Positions 1-2,740 of a DNA stretch of 64,000 nucleotides are shown in pieces. The stretch spans positions 1 to 64,000 of the forward strand of contig CAMAUC010000011.1 in NCBI GenBank assembly GCA_945861265.1, written 5' to 3'. The first letter of the stretch is position 1, and every line of letters begins with the position of its first letter. A program made the translations under genes and the position numbers. The stretch is from Rhizobium sp. Q54. GTDB taxonomy: Bacteria; Pseudomonadota; Alphaproteobacteria; Rhizobiales; Xanthobacteraceae. The notes beneath the pieces were generated by a model that was given only the letters and a program-made list of their open reading frames with translations, was not told where the DNA came from and did not search any database.

Positions 1-143
1 CCCTTGCTGCCAGATATACCGTTGTCGGATATTTCCCGCACAACAGACCAGTTGTTTCTCTTACAGACTGCGCGAAGTTCAAGCGTTTGATTTTCAGTTG
101 ACTGCTTGAGCGTTGAAACCCGCGAATAAATGACTGCGCGCAT
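1..143 (-). CDS. Serine recombinase (resolvase/invertase-type), N-terminal 47 residues, runs off the left edge
   Basis: The gene starts at the ATG at 143-141 and is still open at base 1, so only 47 codons are seen. The start reads MRAVIYSRVSTLKQS, the classic N-terminus of the serine recombinase catalytic domain. Arg8 and Ser10 fall at the same residue numbers as in gamma-delta resolvase, Ser10 being the DNA-attacking nucleophile. An EISDNGISGSKG segment near residues 36-47 also matches the family. No MerR-like helix-turn-helix precedes it, so it is not IS607 TnpA. Whether it is a small resolvase/invertase or a large serine integrase cannot be told. The base composition is clearly more AT-rich than the rest of the window, and the gene lies next to a broken tRNA gene, so it is probably part of a mobile element. 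The upstream GGGAAAAAC is only a weak ribosome binding site. Confidence 0.85.
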   Translation of the reverse strand, partial: MRAVIYSRVSTLKQSTENQTLELRAVCKRNNWSVVREISDNGISGSK

Positions 144-241
144 GATTGATGTTTTTCCCTTGATGATTGACTTTCATCAAAAAGTATACACCAATTCAAT
201 ACACCTTGCTATAAGCTATTGATAATAATACCAGAGCAGAC
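144..241. mobile_element. AT-rich terminal segment of an integrated element between the recombinase start and the tRNA break
   Basis: These 98 bases are markedly AT-rich compared with the neighbouring host DNA and hold no reading frame of note. Homology to tRNA-Met stops at 242, so base 241 is the apparent host/element boundary. The real crossover may lie a few bases inside the tRNA. The far end of the element is outside the window. Inference from composition and the adjacent recombinase gene. Confidence 0.6.
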
Positions 242-282
242 GATTATGATTCCGCCGCTCTAACCAGCTGAGCTACCCCGCC
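242..282 (-). pseudogene. tRNA-Met (CAU), 5' half only
   Basis: Read on the minus strand from 282, the sequence gives an acceptor strand GGCGGGG, then TAGCTC, the AGCTGGTTA D-loop, GAGC, the anticodon-stem strand GCGGA (255-251), the loop ATCATAA with anticodon CAT at 248-246, and TC of the 3' stem strand. Pairing is lost at 241 (G where C is expected). No variable loop, T-arm or 3' acceptor strand follows within the window. The gene is therefore cut in the anticodon stem by the element on its left. Its own promoter is intact upstream. Confidence 0.8.
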
Positions 283-313
283 ACCGATCCCGGCGGTCCA
301 CCGGGATGGCGCG

Positions 314-342
314 ATATAGGGAGGCCGGACCGATGCTGTCAA
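314..342 (-). promoter_or_regulatory. Sigma-70-type promoter of the broken tRNA-Met gene
   Basis: On the minus strand there is a perfect TTGACA (342-337), a 17-bp spacer and CTATAT (319-314), about 30 bp before the tRNA 5' end at 282. Transcription would pass through the half tRNA and on into the recombinase gene, which is on the same strand. Confidence 0.7.
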
Positions 343-372
343 GCAAGCCCCGCCGGCCGCACCGGTTTGCCG

Positions 373-726
373 CTATTTCGGCGTGACGCTCGGGTCGCCG
401 CCCGGCGAACCCGGCGGCGGGATCACCGGCATGGCGCCGCCCGGCGGCGTCGGTGCGCGGATTTCCGGATCGACCTGGCCGGGCGGGCAGATCACGCCGT
501 TCGAGGCGGCGAGCTTGTCGCTTAAGTTTCGGCTGTCCTGTTTGCTGACGTCGATGTCGCCGCCCTGCCCGATCGTTGCTCGCGTACCGGGATGGGCGCA
601 GGAGTTCGGATCGAGCTGTTCGGTTTTCGGCGCGACCGGGGCATTTGGCGTCGGCGGTGGCGATTGTGCCAGTGCGATTGACGGCGTGAGCGCGAGCGCC
701 GCCGCGAACGCGATGAGGTTCCGCAT
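373..726 (-). CDS. Small proline-rich secreted protein of unknown function
   Basis: 117 residues. The start at 726 is chosen because an AAGGAGG ribosome binding site lies 6 bases upstream and the translation then opens with a signal peptide (MRNLIAFAAALALTPSIALAQ-like, cleavage near residue 21). A longer frame reaching 786 lacks these signs. The mature part is rich in Pro, Gly and Ala and ends in repeated PPG/PG turns, with a single Cys pair-like spacing (NSCAH... VICPPGQ). No known domain was recognised. An EcfG-type promoter lies 42 bp upstream, suggesting induction under general stress. Likely periplasmic or envelope-associated by inference only. Confidence 0.7.
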   Translation of the reverse strand: MRNLIAFAAALALTPSIALAQSPPPTPNAPVAPKTEQLDPNSCAHPGTRATIGQGGDIDVSKQDSRNLSDKLAASNGVICPPGQVDPEIRAPTPPGGAMPVIPPPGSPGGDPSVTPK

Positions 727-767
727 ATCCGCCTCCTTCGCACGCGCGCCTGCGCGTGAACGGAGAT

Positions 768-793
768 AACGGCTGGACCGGACCAAGGGTTCC
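768..793 (-). promoter_or_regulatory. EcfG (general stress response) promoter
   Basis: The minus strand reads GGAAC (793-789), 17 bases, then CGTT (771-768). This is an exact match to the alphaproteobacterial EcfG consensus GGAAC-N16/17-CGTT. It points at the secreted protein gene that starts at 726. Confidence 0.65.
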
Positions 794-810
794 GCTTGAA
801 GTTGAATGGA

Positions 811-1485
811 TTATGCGGCCTTTTGACCGGCCGCCAGCCGCGCGAAGCGAATCAAGGTGAAATTGCCGAGCGGCGGCAGCGGCCGGCGCTCGATCACCTC
901 AACGCCGCCATGGCGCGCCGCCCAGTTCGACAGACGGCTAAACGAGAATTCCGGCCGCCAGCCAAGACGGCGGGCGATCGGCGAGAAGCACAATTCAAAC
1001 AGCCGGCGCGGCCCGCTTTCGGCGCCGATGTGATTGACCAGAACAATTTCGCCGCCGGGCTTGAGCACGCGGATGAATTCGTCGAGCGTTTCTTCCGGAT
1101 GCGGCACCGTAGTGATGACGAACTGCGCCACTACGACGTCGAAGCTCTGGTCCGGCAGCGCCATGCGCTCGGCATCCATCACCGACAGGCCATCGACATA
1201 CGCCAGCGCCTGCGTATCGACGCGCTCCTGCGCCTTGCGCAGCATCGGCTCGGACAGGTCGATGCCGACGATGCGGTTGATCGGGTTGTAATCGGGAAGA
1301 GAAATGCCGGTGCCGACGCCGACTTCGAGAATGCGGCCGCCATGCGGGCCACAGTGGCGCTCAGCGGCGACGATCGCTTCGCCGCGGCCGGGCGCGAATA
1401 CCCTGCCGAAGACGAAATCATAAATCGGCGCCCAGAGCGCATAAGCGCGCTCGACGCCATGTTTATCGAGATCGCCCCCCATCAC
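811..1485 (-). CDS. pmtA: Class I SAM-dependent methyltransferase, probable phosphatidylethanolamine N-methyltransferase PmtA
   Basis: 224 residues. The SAM-binding motif I (EVGVGTG) is at about residues 54-60 and the acidic strand-2 motif GIDLSEPML at about 73-81. The N-terminal YALWAPIYDFVFG segment and the overall length match the Rhodobacter-type PmtA family, which methylates phosphatidylethanolamine stepwise towards phosphatidylcholine at the membrane. The C-terminal region after the Rossmann fold (FELCFSPIARRLGWRPEF) is also typical. Start codons at 1485 and 1482 are adjacent and cannot be separated. It lies downstream of mnmA on the same strand with about 67 bases between them. A related methyltransferase with another lipid or quinone substrate is possible. 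Confidence 0.75.
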   Translation of the reverse strand: MMGGDLDKHGVERAYALWAPIYDFVFGRVFAPGRGEAIVAAERHCGPHGGRILEVGVGTGISLPDYNPINRIVGIDLSEPMLRKAQERVDTQALAYVDGLSVMDAERMALPDQSFDVVVAQFVITTVPHPEETLDEFIRVLKPGGEIVLVNHIGAESGPRRLFELCFSPIARRLGWRPEFSFSRLSNWAARHGGVEVIERRPLPPLGNFTLIRFARLAAGQKAA

Positions 1486-1552
1486 TTACTTTACCGTCAC
1501 GCGGATCGTCATTGCGGAAGTGGAACCCGGCAGCCGAAATGGCTGTAAAATC

Positions 1553-2740
1553 TTACCCTTCCGCGCCCACGCCTGCAATCAGTTCCGTGCGCGTCGCCGC
1601 GGCGGCCGCAACCGCGCTCTTGATAAAGCCGCCGCCGAGCACGCGGGCCTGGCCCGCCGGTGCGTCATAAAAGACGCAGGCCTGGCCGGGCGACACGCCG
1701 TGTTCGCCATCGACCAGTTCGATTTCGTAGCCCGAGGCACCGTGCCGAAGCCAGGCCGCCTGCGGCGGGCGCGACGAGCGCACCTTGACGAAGACTTCCA
1801 GTTTGTCGTCGGCCAGCAGCGCATCGAGATCGCCGCCGCCGATCCAATTGACGTCGCGCAGCACGATGCCGGTGGTACGCAAGGCCTCGCGCGGCCCGAC
1901 GACGACGCGGCGATGTTCGGCATCGAGCTTGACGACATAAAGCGGGCTGGCGCCGGAAACCTTGAGGCCGCGCCGTTGCCCGATCGTGAAATGGATGATC
2001 CCGGAATGCTCGCCGAGCACCTTGCCGTCGAGATCGACGATTGTGCCGGGCTCGGCCGAGCCCGGCTTCAGGCGCTCGATAATGTCGGCGTAATGCCCGG
2101 TCGGCACGAAACATATGTCCTGACTGTCATGCTTGTCGGCTATGGCAAGGCCGTATTGGCGCGCCAATTCGCGCGTTTCCGCCTTGGTGCGGTCGCCCAG
2201 CGGAAAGCGCAAGGTTTCGAGTTGCTCGGCCGTGGTGCCGAACAGGAAATAGCTCTGGTCGCGTTCTTCCTCGCGGGCGCGATAAAGACCGCGGCCGCCG
2301 CCGGGCAGCGGACGCGAGGCGACATAATGGCCGGTGGCCAGGACGTCGGCGCCGAGTTCGCGCGCGGTGACCAGCAGATCCTTGAACTTGATCGACATGT
2401 TGCAGGCGACGCAGGGCACCGGCGTCTCGCCGGCGATGTAGCTCTCGGCGAAGCGGTCGATCACCGCTTCCTTGAAGCGGCTTTCATAATCGAGAACGTA
2501 ATGCGGTATTCCGATACGCTCGGCGACGCTGCGCGCATCGTAGATGTCCTGGCCGGCGCAGCAGGCGCCTTTGCGGTGGGTGGCGGCGCCATGGTCGTAA
2601 AGCTGCAAGGTGACGCCGACCACGTCATAGCCCTCGGCCTTGAGCAGGGCGGCGGTCACCGAGCTATCGACGCCGCCAGACATGGCGACGACGACACGGG
2701 TGTCCTGCGGACGGGCGGCGAGGTCGAGGGAATTTGACAT
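1553..2740 (-). CDS. mnmA: tRNA-specific 2-thiouridylase MnmA
   Basis: 395 residues. MnmA activates U34 of the Lys, Glu and Gln tRNAs with ATP and inserts sulfur to make s2U34. The PP-loop ATP pyrophosphatase motif SGGVDSS is at residues 21-27. The catalytic cysteine sits in CVACN (about residue 113) and the second cysteine in DICFVP (about residue 210). The family motif ATGHY is near residue 135. The start at 2740 is chosen because the PP-loop then has the usual short lead-in; an in-frame extension to 2836 would add 32 unconserved residues across the intergenic region. It is divergent from fliK, and the shared spacer carries flagellar control sites. Confidence 0.95.

Follow-up and report, generated by a model that had tools for sequence, protein, structure and literature searches.

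An elongator tRNA-Met gene split at the end of a mobile element, and a candidate case of tRNA-dependent integration in an alphaproteobacterial recombinase family

Positions 1–282 of the window, by which we mean the whole stretch of 64,000 nucleotides analysed here, probably represent an attachment junction of tRNA-dependent integration by a family of tyrosine recombinases, with a replacement tRNA-Met likely carried by the element itself. Comparison with relatives confirms that 282..242 on the minus strand is the 5' half of an elongator tRNA-Met gene broken by a mobile element. In the mechanism that we propose, these positions would form one of the attachment junctions of an integrated element. 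A tyrosine recombinase, encoded after the serine recombinase in a second copy on contig C57 of the same genome and expected beyond the contig end in the window's contig C11, would recombine a short core at the anticodon loop of tRNA-Met. The promoter and the 5' half would stay on the window side, and the 3' half would go to the unassembled far end, leaving tRNA-Met unrebuilt at the window junction. As a replacement, the element would most likely bring a complete tRNA-Met of its own close to the opposite end, in the way that an Afipia relative does for tRNA-Thr(UGU), and paired repeats 37–52 bp from the core would probably bind the integrase.

The junction at tRNA-Met and a second copy at tRNA-Gln(UUG)

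The first base of the window is the true start of its contig (G000:C11, 66,501 bp), and the source genome comprises 133 contigs, amounting to 3.75 Mb at 95.7% completeness. The features at issue are as follows.

1..241, minus strand: end of the mobile element that carries the recombinase, truncated where the contig stops; bases 1–161 are 94% identical to C57
3..143, minus strand: first 47 codons of a serine recombinase (resolvase family), cut by the contig end; read from the frame, with a complete copy on C57
183..211, minus strand: possible recombinase promoter, TAGCAA-N17-TATACT, weak; 8/12 matches, against 10/12 in the homologous site of C57
185..191, minus strand: repeat 2, GTGTATA, 13 bp further in than repeat 1
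198..204, minus strand: repeat 1, GTGTATT, at a distance of 37 bp from the core; perhaps an arm site for the integrase, or an operator
242..282, minus strand: native 5' half of elongator tRNA-Met(CAU), displaced, which stops about 2 bases beyond the anticodon loop
314..342, minus strand: host tRNA promoter, TTGACA-N17-CTATAT, read from the sequence; hexamers and spacing as before the intact tRNA-Met of G416
811..1485, minus strand: host gene, presumably methyltransferase-like (a name that we assume from its sequence); gene order shared with G416 around its intact tRNA-Met
1553..2737, minus strand: host tRNA-modification gene, which we take from its sequence to be mnmA-like; collinear with G416

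An earlier reading made from the sequence only had proposed that a mobile element cut the elongator tRNA-Met gene at the anticodon, that the tRNA promoter is intact and that a 47-residue frame next to the half gene continues into a recombinase, and these points are borne out. Over 282..242 (minus strand) the window matches the intact elongator tRNA-Met of G416, a genome of the same genus in two contigs, at 40 of 41 bases, and divergence then sets in, with all four of the next bases past 242 differing from the G416 gene. The same stretch was the best Met match in the source genome in a direct search with the G416 tRNA-Met. The host genes to the right of the half gene are collinear with the G416 locus, which bears the intact tRNA-Met. 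The attB lies in a host tRNA gene and is unrestored at the window junction, as tRNA-Met breaks after 41 nt and ARAGORN called no whole tRNA in the window. The promoter is present at 342..314 (minus strand), and the G416 orthologue has the same hexamers and spacing; the promoter scan of the window did not list it, as CTATAT fails the scan rule on position 2. An AT-rich leader lies between the tRNA-Met 5' half and the serine recombinase frame on the minus strand, and the 47 residues of this frame are 98% identical to the start of the complete 193-aa serine recombinase on C57.

On C57 a leader, the 193-aa serine recombinase and then a 423-aa protein come after the 5' half of tRNA-Gln(UUG), the 423-aa frame overlapping the end of the serine recombinase by one base. 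On the host side of C57 the genes are collinear with those around the intact tRNA-Gln(UUG) in G416. The serine recombinase matches PF00239 (E 3e-43), with an HTH_7 match under the cut-off. Large serine integrases have a long C-terminal region and are usually over 450 aa; this region is missing from the C57 protein. The 423-aa protein has only a sub-threshold Pfam match (PF00589 Phage_integrase, E 0.006) and no match in PHROGs. Its relatives L096 and L097, respectively 42% and 39% identical to it, match the PHROG integrase family phrog_1 at E 5e-19 and 1e-24, and the 423-aa protein is therefore taken as a tyrosine recombinase. The motifs Y-S-[VL]-R-H-T and N-A-G-T-S are common to L003, L096 and L097 in their alignment, before the last tyrosine, and presumably replace the usual histidines. 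The PDB offered no solved structure for the tyrosine recombinase profile (A4), and the best 60 of 103 matches in a PDB search by sequence were all EGFR kinase, which we judged spurious.

Element ends at tRNA halves, and relatives that replace or rebuild the gene

The C57 tyrosine recombinase retrieved only itself from 297 genomes of the order at E 1e-40, and 25 places in 22 genomes from 296 genomes of the family at E 1e-8; profile A3 retrieved 11 places in 8 genomes from 385 genomes of the class at E 1e-20. In a wider collection of genome contigs, a single-protein search gave none and a later scan gave three loci. Nine distinct places hold close relatives, namely C57, C84, Afipia, L082, L083, G959 C67 and C69, G641 and G878, with G580:C31 falling within the Afipia locus L081 and counted with it as one place. 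The weaker places, five in the class (G808 twice, G684, G590, G680) and 22 in the family (L059–L080), were scanned for whole tRNAs. The operon start adjoins a tRNA half in seven of the nine close-relative places, the exceptions being G959:C69 and G878. The recombinase copy on G959:C69 (L096) has no tRNA half upstream, and the operon start in G878:C1 near 1,042,000 (L094), including the start of the serine recombinase, is lost. The seven tRNA-half places and the window end on C11 make up eight ends from up to six genomes, the isotypes of which were read from sequence except where an intact orthologue was called.

5'-half ends (3/8): Met (C11), Gln(UUG) (C57), Thr(UGU) (Afipia)
3'-half ends (5/8): Arg(CCU) (L083), Gly(CCC) (G959:C67 and G641), Lys(CUU) (C84 and L082)

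All eight ends break at the anticodon loop within about two bases. Tyrosine integrases commonly break tRNA genes at this loop.

The Afipia MAG (G580) has the same operon beside the 5' half of a split tRNA-Thr(UGU) and is the sole 5'-half member showing both junctions. These lie on two separate contigs, and the MAG is 84% complete with 6% contamination. The native 3' half was located on its contig C520 by a search with a tRNA-Thr 3'-end pattern. Joined, the two host halves form a 75-nt tRNA-Thr (ARAGORN), and the junctions have a common core of 9 bp, GTTTTGTAA. At 76 bp inside the element, C520 bears a complete tRNA-Thr(UGU) with a different acceptor stem, identical to the native gene at 67 of 75 bases and lying downstream of a small tyrosine recombinase (L160 1360-1995, 211 aa, PF00589, E 1e-20). 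The target of the Afipia relative is thus left broken, and the element has a complete second copy of the tRNA. This suggests how a cell may survive the loss of the split gene, a point absent from the sequence-only reading. In four of five other genomes of the genus, the joined site matches across the junction over 114–124 bases and tRNA-Thr is uninterrupted, and the joined site had no match in G560. The flank order beyond the uninterrupted gene is common only to G319 (with a gap), while the downstream flank piece is near but inverted in G522 and G491 and absent in G378.

A second type of element occurs in G416, where tRNA-Thr(UGU) on G416:C1 (L177 4125-7921) is split by 3.7 kb within one contig. 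This element runs from the native 5' half through an 8-bp core, TTTTGTAA, a second whole tRNA-Thr (70/75 identical to the native one), a Prim-Pol gene, two HTH_17 proteins and a tyrosine integrase to the native 3' half. The integrase matches PF00589 just over the cut-off and an arm-binding domain just under it, and it also falls in phrog_1. Comparison with profile A4 in hhalign found no similarity (probability 0.2 of 100), so the G416 integrase and the window's family are distant at most. The Afipia and G416 cases together indicate that, within this bacterial family, tRNA replacement is associated with two distinct integrases.

The window's genome also holds an element at tRNA-Lys(CUU), in which 48 bp are common to the displaced 3' half on C84 and a whole tRNA on C62. 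The C84 recombinase is 37% identical to its C57 relative over the part present. The whole tRNA-Lys on C62 was considered as a separate replacement and rejected, because its upstream (5') side is collinear host DNA and it has the 48-bp core in common with C84. Judged from these junction sequences, C84/C62 is a classical rebuilding integration. Since the Lys element rebuilds its target and the Afipia Thr element replaces it, the family has both strategies. Near 501–502 kb of G416:C1, a 477-codon frame (L139 5477-6907) that looks serine recombinase-like by eye ends near tRNA-Lys(CUU), which is the same tRNA as the site of the C84/C62 element.

These relatives bear directly on the strongest alternative, namely that the element attP carries the tRNA 5' half and promoter, so that the far end has a complete, restored tRNA-Met (with the native 3' half) and no separate replacement exists. 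Rebuilding is the classical outcome, and the tRNA-Lys(CUU) relative in the same genome does exactly this over its 48-bp core, though with the 3' half. The Afipia Thr element, as the sole 5'-half relative with both ends, has instead a 9-bp core and a separate full tRNA, and we consider rebuilding at tRNA-Met unlikely.

Tyrosine-recombinase integration with a replacement tRNA-Met, which we prefer, was also set against the tRNA content of the genome. An Rfam tRNA search of the 133 contigs found 35 tRNAs; elongator Met and Gln(UUG) are absent among the 30 that were typed, and the five untyped ones (82–89 nt) are by their length presumably not Met or Gln. Two CAT tRNAs match other G416 tRNAs and not the elongator, at 73/76 and 77/77; we take these G416 genes to be Ile2-like and initiator, respectively. 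The tRNA (CAU) on C107 was accordingly rejected as elongator Met, matching another G416 CAT tRNA at 73/76 and the elongator at 55. With the G416 Met and Gln tRNAs as queries (E up to 10), no whole elongator tRNA-Met or tRNA-Gln(UUG) was found in the genome, and the 15 places returned comprised both 5' halves, further tRNAs and matches of short length. The 133 contigs, in which the far ends of the elements are unassembled, yielded no Met 3' half with an anticodon arm, no replacement tRNA-Met and no Gln counterparts. The sole Met 3' piece, on C3 (35026-35052), was rejected as the missing 3' half because it is only a 27-bp tRNA tail; it stands alone in repeat-rich DNA and may be the scar of another insertion.

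The tRNA-Met split by the element appears to be the only elongator tRNA-Met gene of the genome. The sequence-only reading had called for a check for another intact copy; none was found, which is weak evidence: G416 has 44 tRNAs against 35 here, so others are also missing from the bin. Six contigs (C4, C18, C22, C54, C90 and C116) have a tRNA gene within ~160 bases of their start, so breaks in the assembly of this bin often fall at such genes.

Recombinases, repeats and promoters at the eight ends

The name "serine recombinase element", under which the insertion had been described from the sequence, does not hold across the family. The tyrosine recombinase is present in seven of the seven ends whose contig reaches that far. 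In four ends the serine recombinase separates the tRNA half from the tyrosine recombinase, in C11 it is the first gene of the operon, and in three of the eight (C84, L082 and L098, the last from G641) it is missing from that position. It was set aside as the integrase because of these three ends. The idea that the tRNA promoter drives the recombinase also fails as a general layout: the operons at the five 3'-half ends are transcribed away from the tRNA, and the host tRNA promoter therefore cannot be the general driver. Read-through from the tRNA promoter is possible in the three 5'-half ends, the window included.

It is accordingly improbable that the element was integrated by its serine recombinase and that this gene is driven by a captured host tRNA promoter only once the element is in place. 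In favour of this explanation, five of eight ends have the serine recombinase as the gene next to the tRNA half, the host promoter has the G416 hexamers and spacing, and the element promoter in the window copy does not rise above chance. This explanation is countered, however, by the three ends with no serine recombinase at the junction and by the five on 3' halves whose operon faces away from the tRNA, and the protein itself is of the small, 193-aa resolvase type.

Returning to integration by the tyrosine recombinase, the eight ends aligned at the core carry two GTNTAWN-like repeats, at 37–40 and 50–52 bp, for which binding of the integrase would be a probable function. The pattern [CG]TNTA-N8-GTNTA fits seven of the eight ends, or six if only GT is admitted (C84 begins with CT), and L098, the end outside the 13-bp pattern, has a 12-bp period. 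The pattern occurred in 0.25–0.9% of single-base shuffles and in 0–10 of 500 dinucleotide shuffles; as it was picked after inspecting the ends, and the ends are homologous, the shuffles show only that its origin is non-compositional.

Promoter-like sites overlap these repeats. A −10-like hexamer overlapping repeat 2, 51–55 bp from the core, is the best or joint best in six of eight ends, and the best hexamer in the other two overlaps repeat 1, 41–42 bp from the core. The best promoter-like scores across the eight ends are 8–10 of 12, and the scan for promoters in the window did not list TAGCAA-N17-TATACT at 183..211. The numbers of dinucleotide shuffles (of 500) that reached the best promoter score are given below.

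Met 341, Gln 14, Thr 335, Arg 34
Gly L097 316, Gly L098 75
Lys L082 169, Lys C84 101

Only the Gln and Arg ends, each at 10/12, stand out over the shuffles, and the window copy (8/12) does not. The proposal of an own promoter at each of the eight ends was dropped, as the shuffle control leaves only these two. A promoter of the element's own within the attachment region nevertheless seems plausible from the sites predicted at its ends, where transcription of the operon may start.

It is very improbable that the junction is an assembly error, whether a chimera or an artefact of the contig end, in which part of a tRNA gene was fused to mobile DNA from elsewhere. The contig does end 241 bases from the junction, the assembly is MAG-like, and the 94% sequence shared with C57 could mislead an assembler; against this, eight ends in up to six genomes all break at the anticodon loop and have the repeats at a fixed distance. 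The sequence-only reading had already held an intron-like arrangement to be less likely, and a split or intron-bearing tRNA gene with halves joined after transcription is now scarcely credible, even though the bin yielded neither elongator tRNA-Met nor tRNA-Gln(UUG) in intact form, given that the C57 insert encodes recombinases, that window positions 1–1500 gave no group I intron covariance-model match (two Rfam matches up to E 1, neither to an intron family), that Afipia and G416 carry whole second tRNAs and that relatives have uninterrupted genes.

Known systems and significance

Relatives of the tyrosine recombinase were absent from phage records, and none was confirmed in viral contigs in four pattern-limited scans. 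The exact element-end pattern had 0 matches in viral contigs, and the plasmid collection gave one partial match to the tyrosine recombinase (31% identity over 39% of the query). Judged by these sequence searches, the recombinase family is without a close relative in the phage, viral and plasmid collections covered, the viral part at the limits of the patterns used. The literature searched, which excludes most subscription journals, yielded no title or abstract on this recombinase family or on a serine-tyrosine pair at split tRNA genes.

Tyrosine-recombinase integration with replacement of the tRNA resembles the tRNA-dependent lysogeny of actinobacteriophages, in which, according to PMC10865867, a tyrosine integrase uses an attB in a tRNA gene, cores are 8–17 bp, the gene is not rebuilt and the element tRNA is of the same isotype. 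Table 2 of that paper lists related integrases that include rebuilding and replacing members. The window's family is alike in its tyrosine recombinase, in having rebuilding and replacing members, and in the 9-bp core and own Thr tRNA of the Afipia element. In contrast, those elements are phages, whereas the family described here is without a relative in phage records; its targets include elongator Met, Gln(UUG) and Thr(UGU), its recombinase end can point towards the 5' or the 3' half of the tRNA, and its operon often includes a serine recombinase. Guerrero-Bustamante and Hatfull 2024 asked (PMC10865867) how prevalent tRNA-dependent integration is elsewhere.

Lo5R7ANS-like prophages occupy tRNA-Leu(UAG) in Sinorhizobium meliloti, as described in PMC11476347 and PMC12429752. 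They are similar in belonging to Alphaproteobacteria, in cutting the tRNA in its central part and in carrying a functionally similar tRNA; they differ as phage elements at another tRNA. Classical tRNA-integrating islands rebuild the gene, according to the Islander paper (PMC4383910). The C84/C62 relative at tRNA-Lys(CUU), with its 48-bp core and rebuilt tRNA, resembles these islands, whereas tRNA-Met is not rebuilt at the window junction. The integrase IntS of KplE1 has an autoregulated promoter overlapping attL, as stated in PMC2951348. A promoter-like site overlapping repeats in the attachment region of the Gln and Arg ends (2/8) is similar to this; the sites here are predicted from sequence, and the window copy is not above chance.

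On balance, we lean towards an alphaproteobacterial family of probably non-phage integrative elements. Its unusual tyrosine recombinase, frequently accompanied by a small enzyme of the serine type, would break tRNA genes present in one copy (Met, Gln, Thr, Lys, Arg, Gly) at the anticodon loop, whichever way the element faces, and some members would replace the tRNA instead of rebuilding it. For their assignment to phage, ICE or other, little beyond the recombinases is assembled for any of the elements. If this reading is true, two elements make the window's cell depend on mobile DNA for its elongator tRNA-Met and tRNA-Gln(UUG), and tRNA replacement is used within one alphaproteobacterial family both by a new family of recombinases and by another element of a different kind. 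The presence of rebuilding and replacing members in one family offers material on how one strategy turns into the other. For annotators, a MAG that seems to be without essential tRNA genes may have them on an unbinned element.
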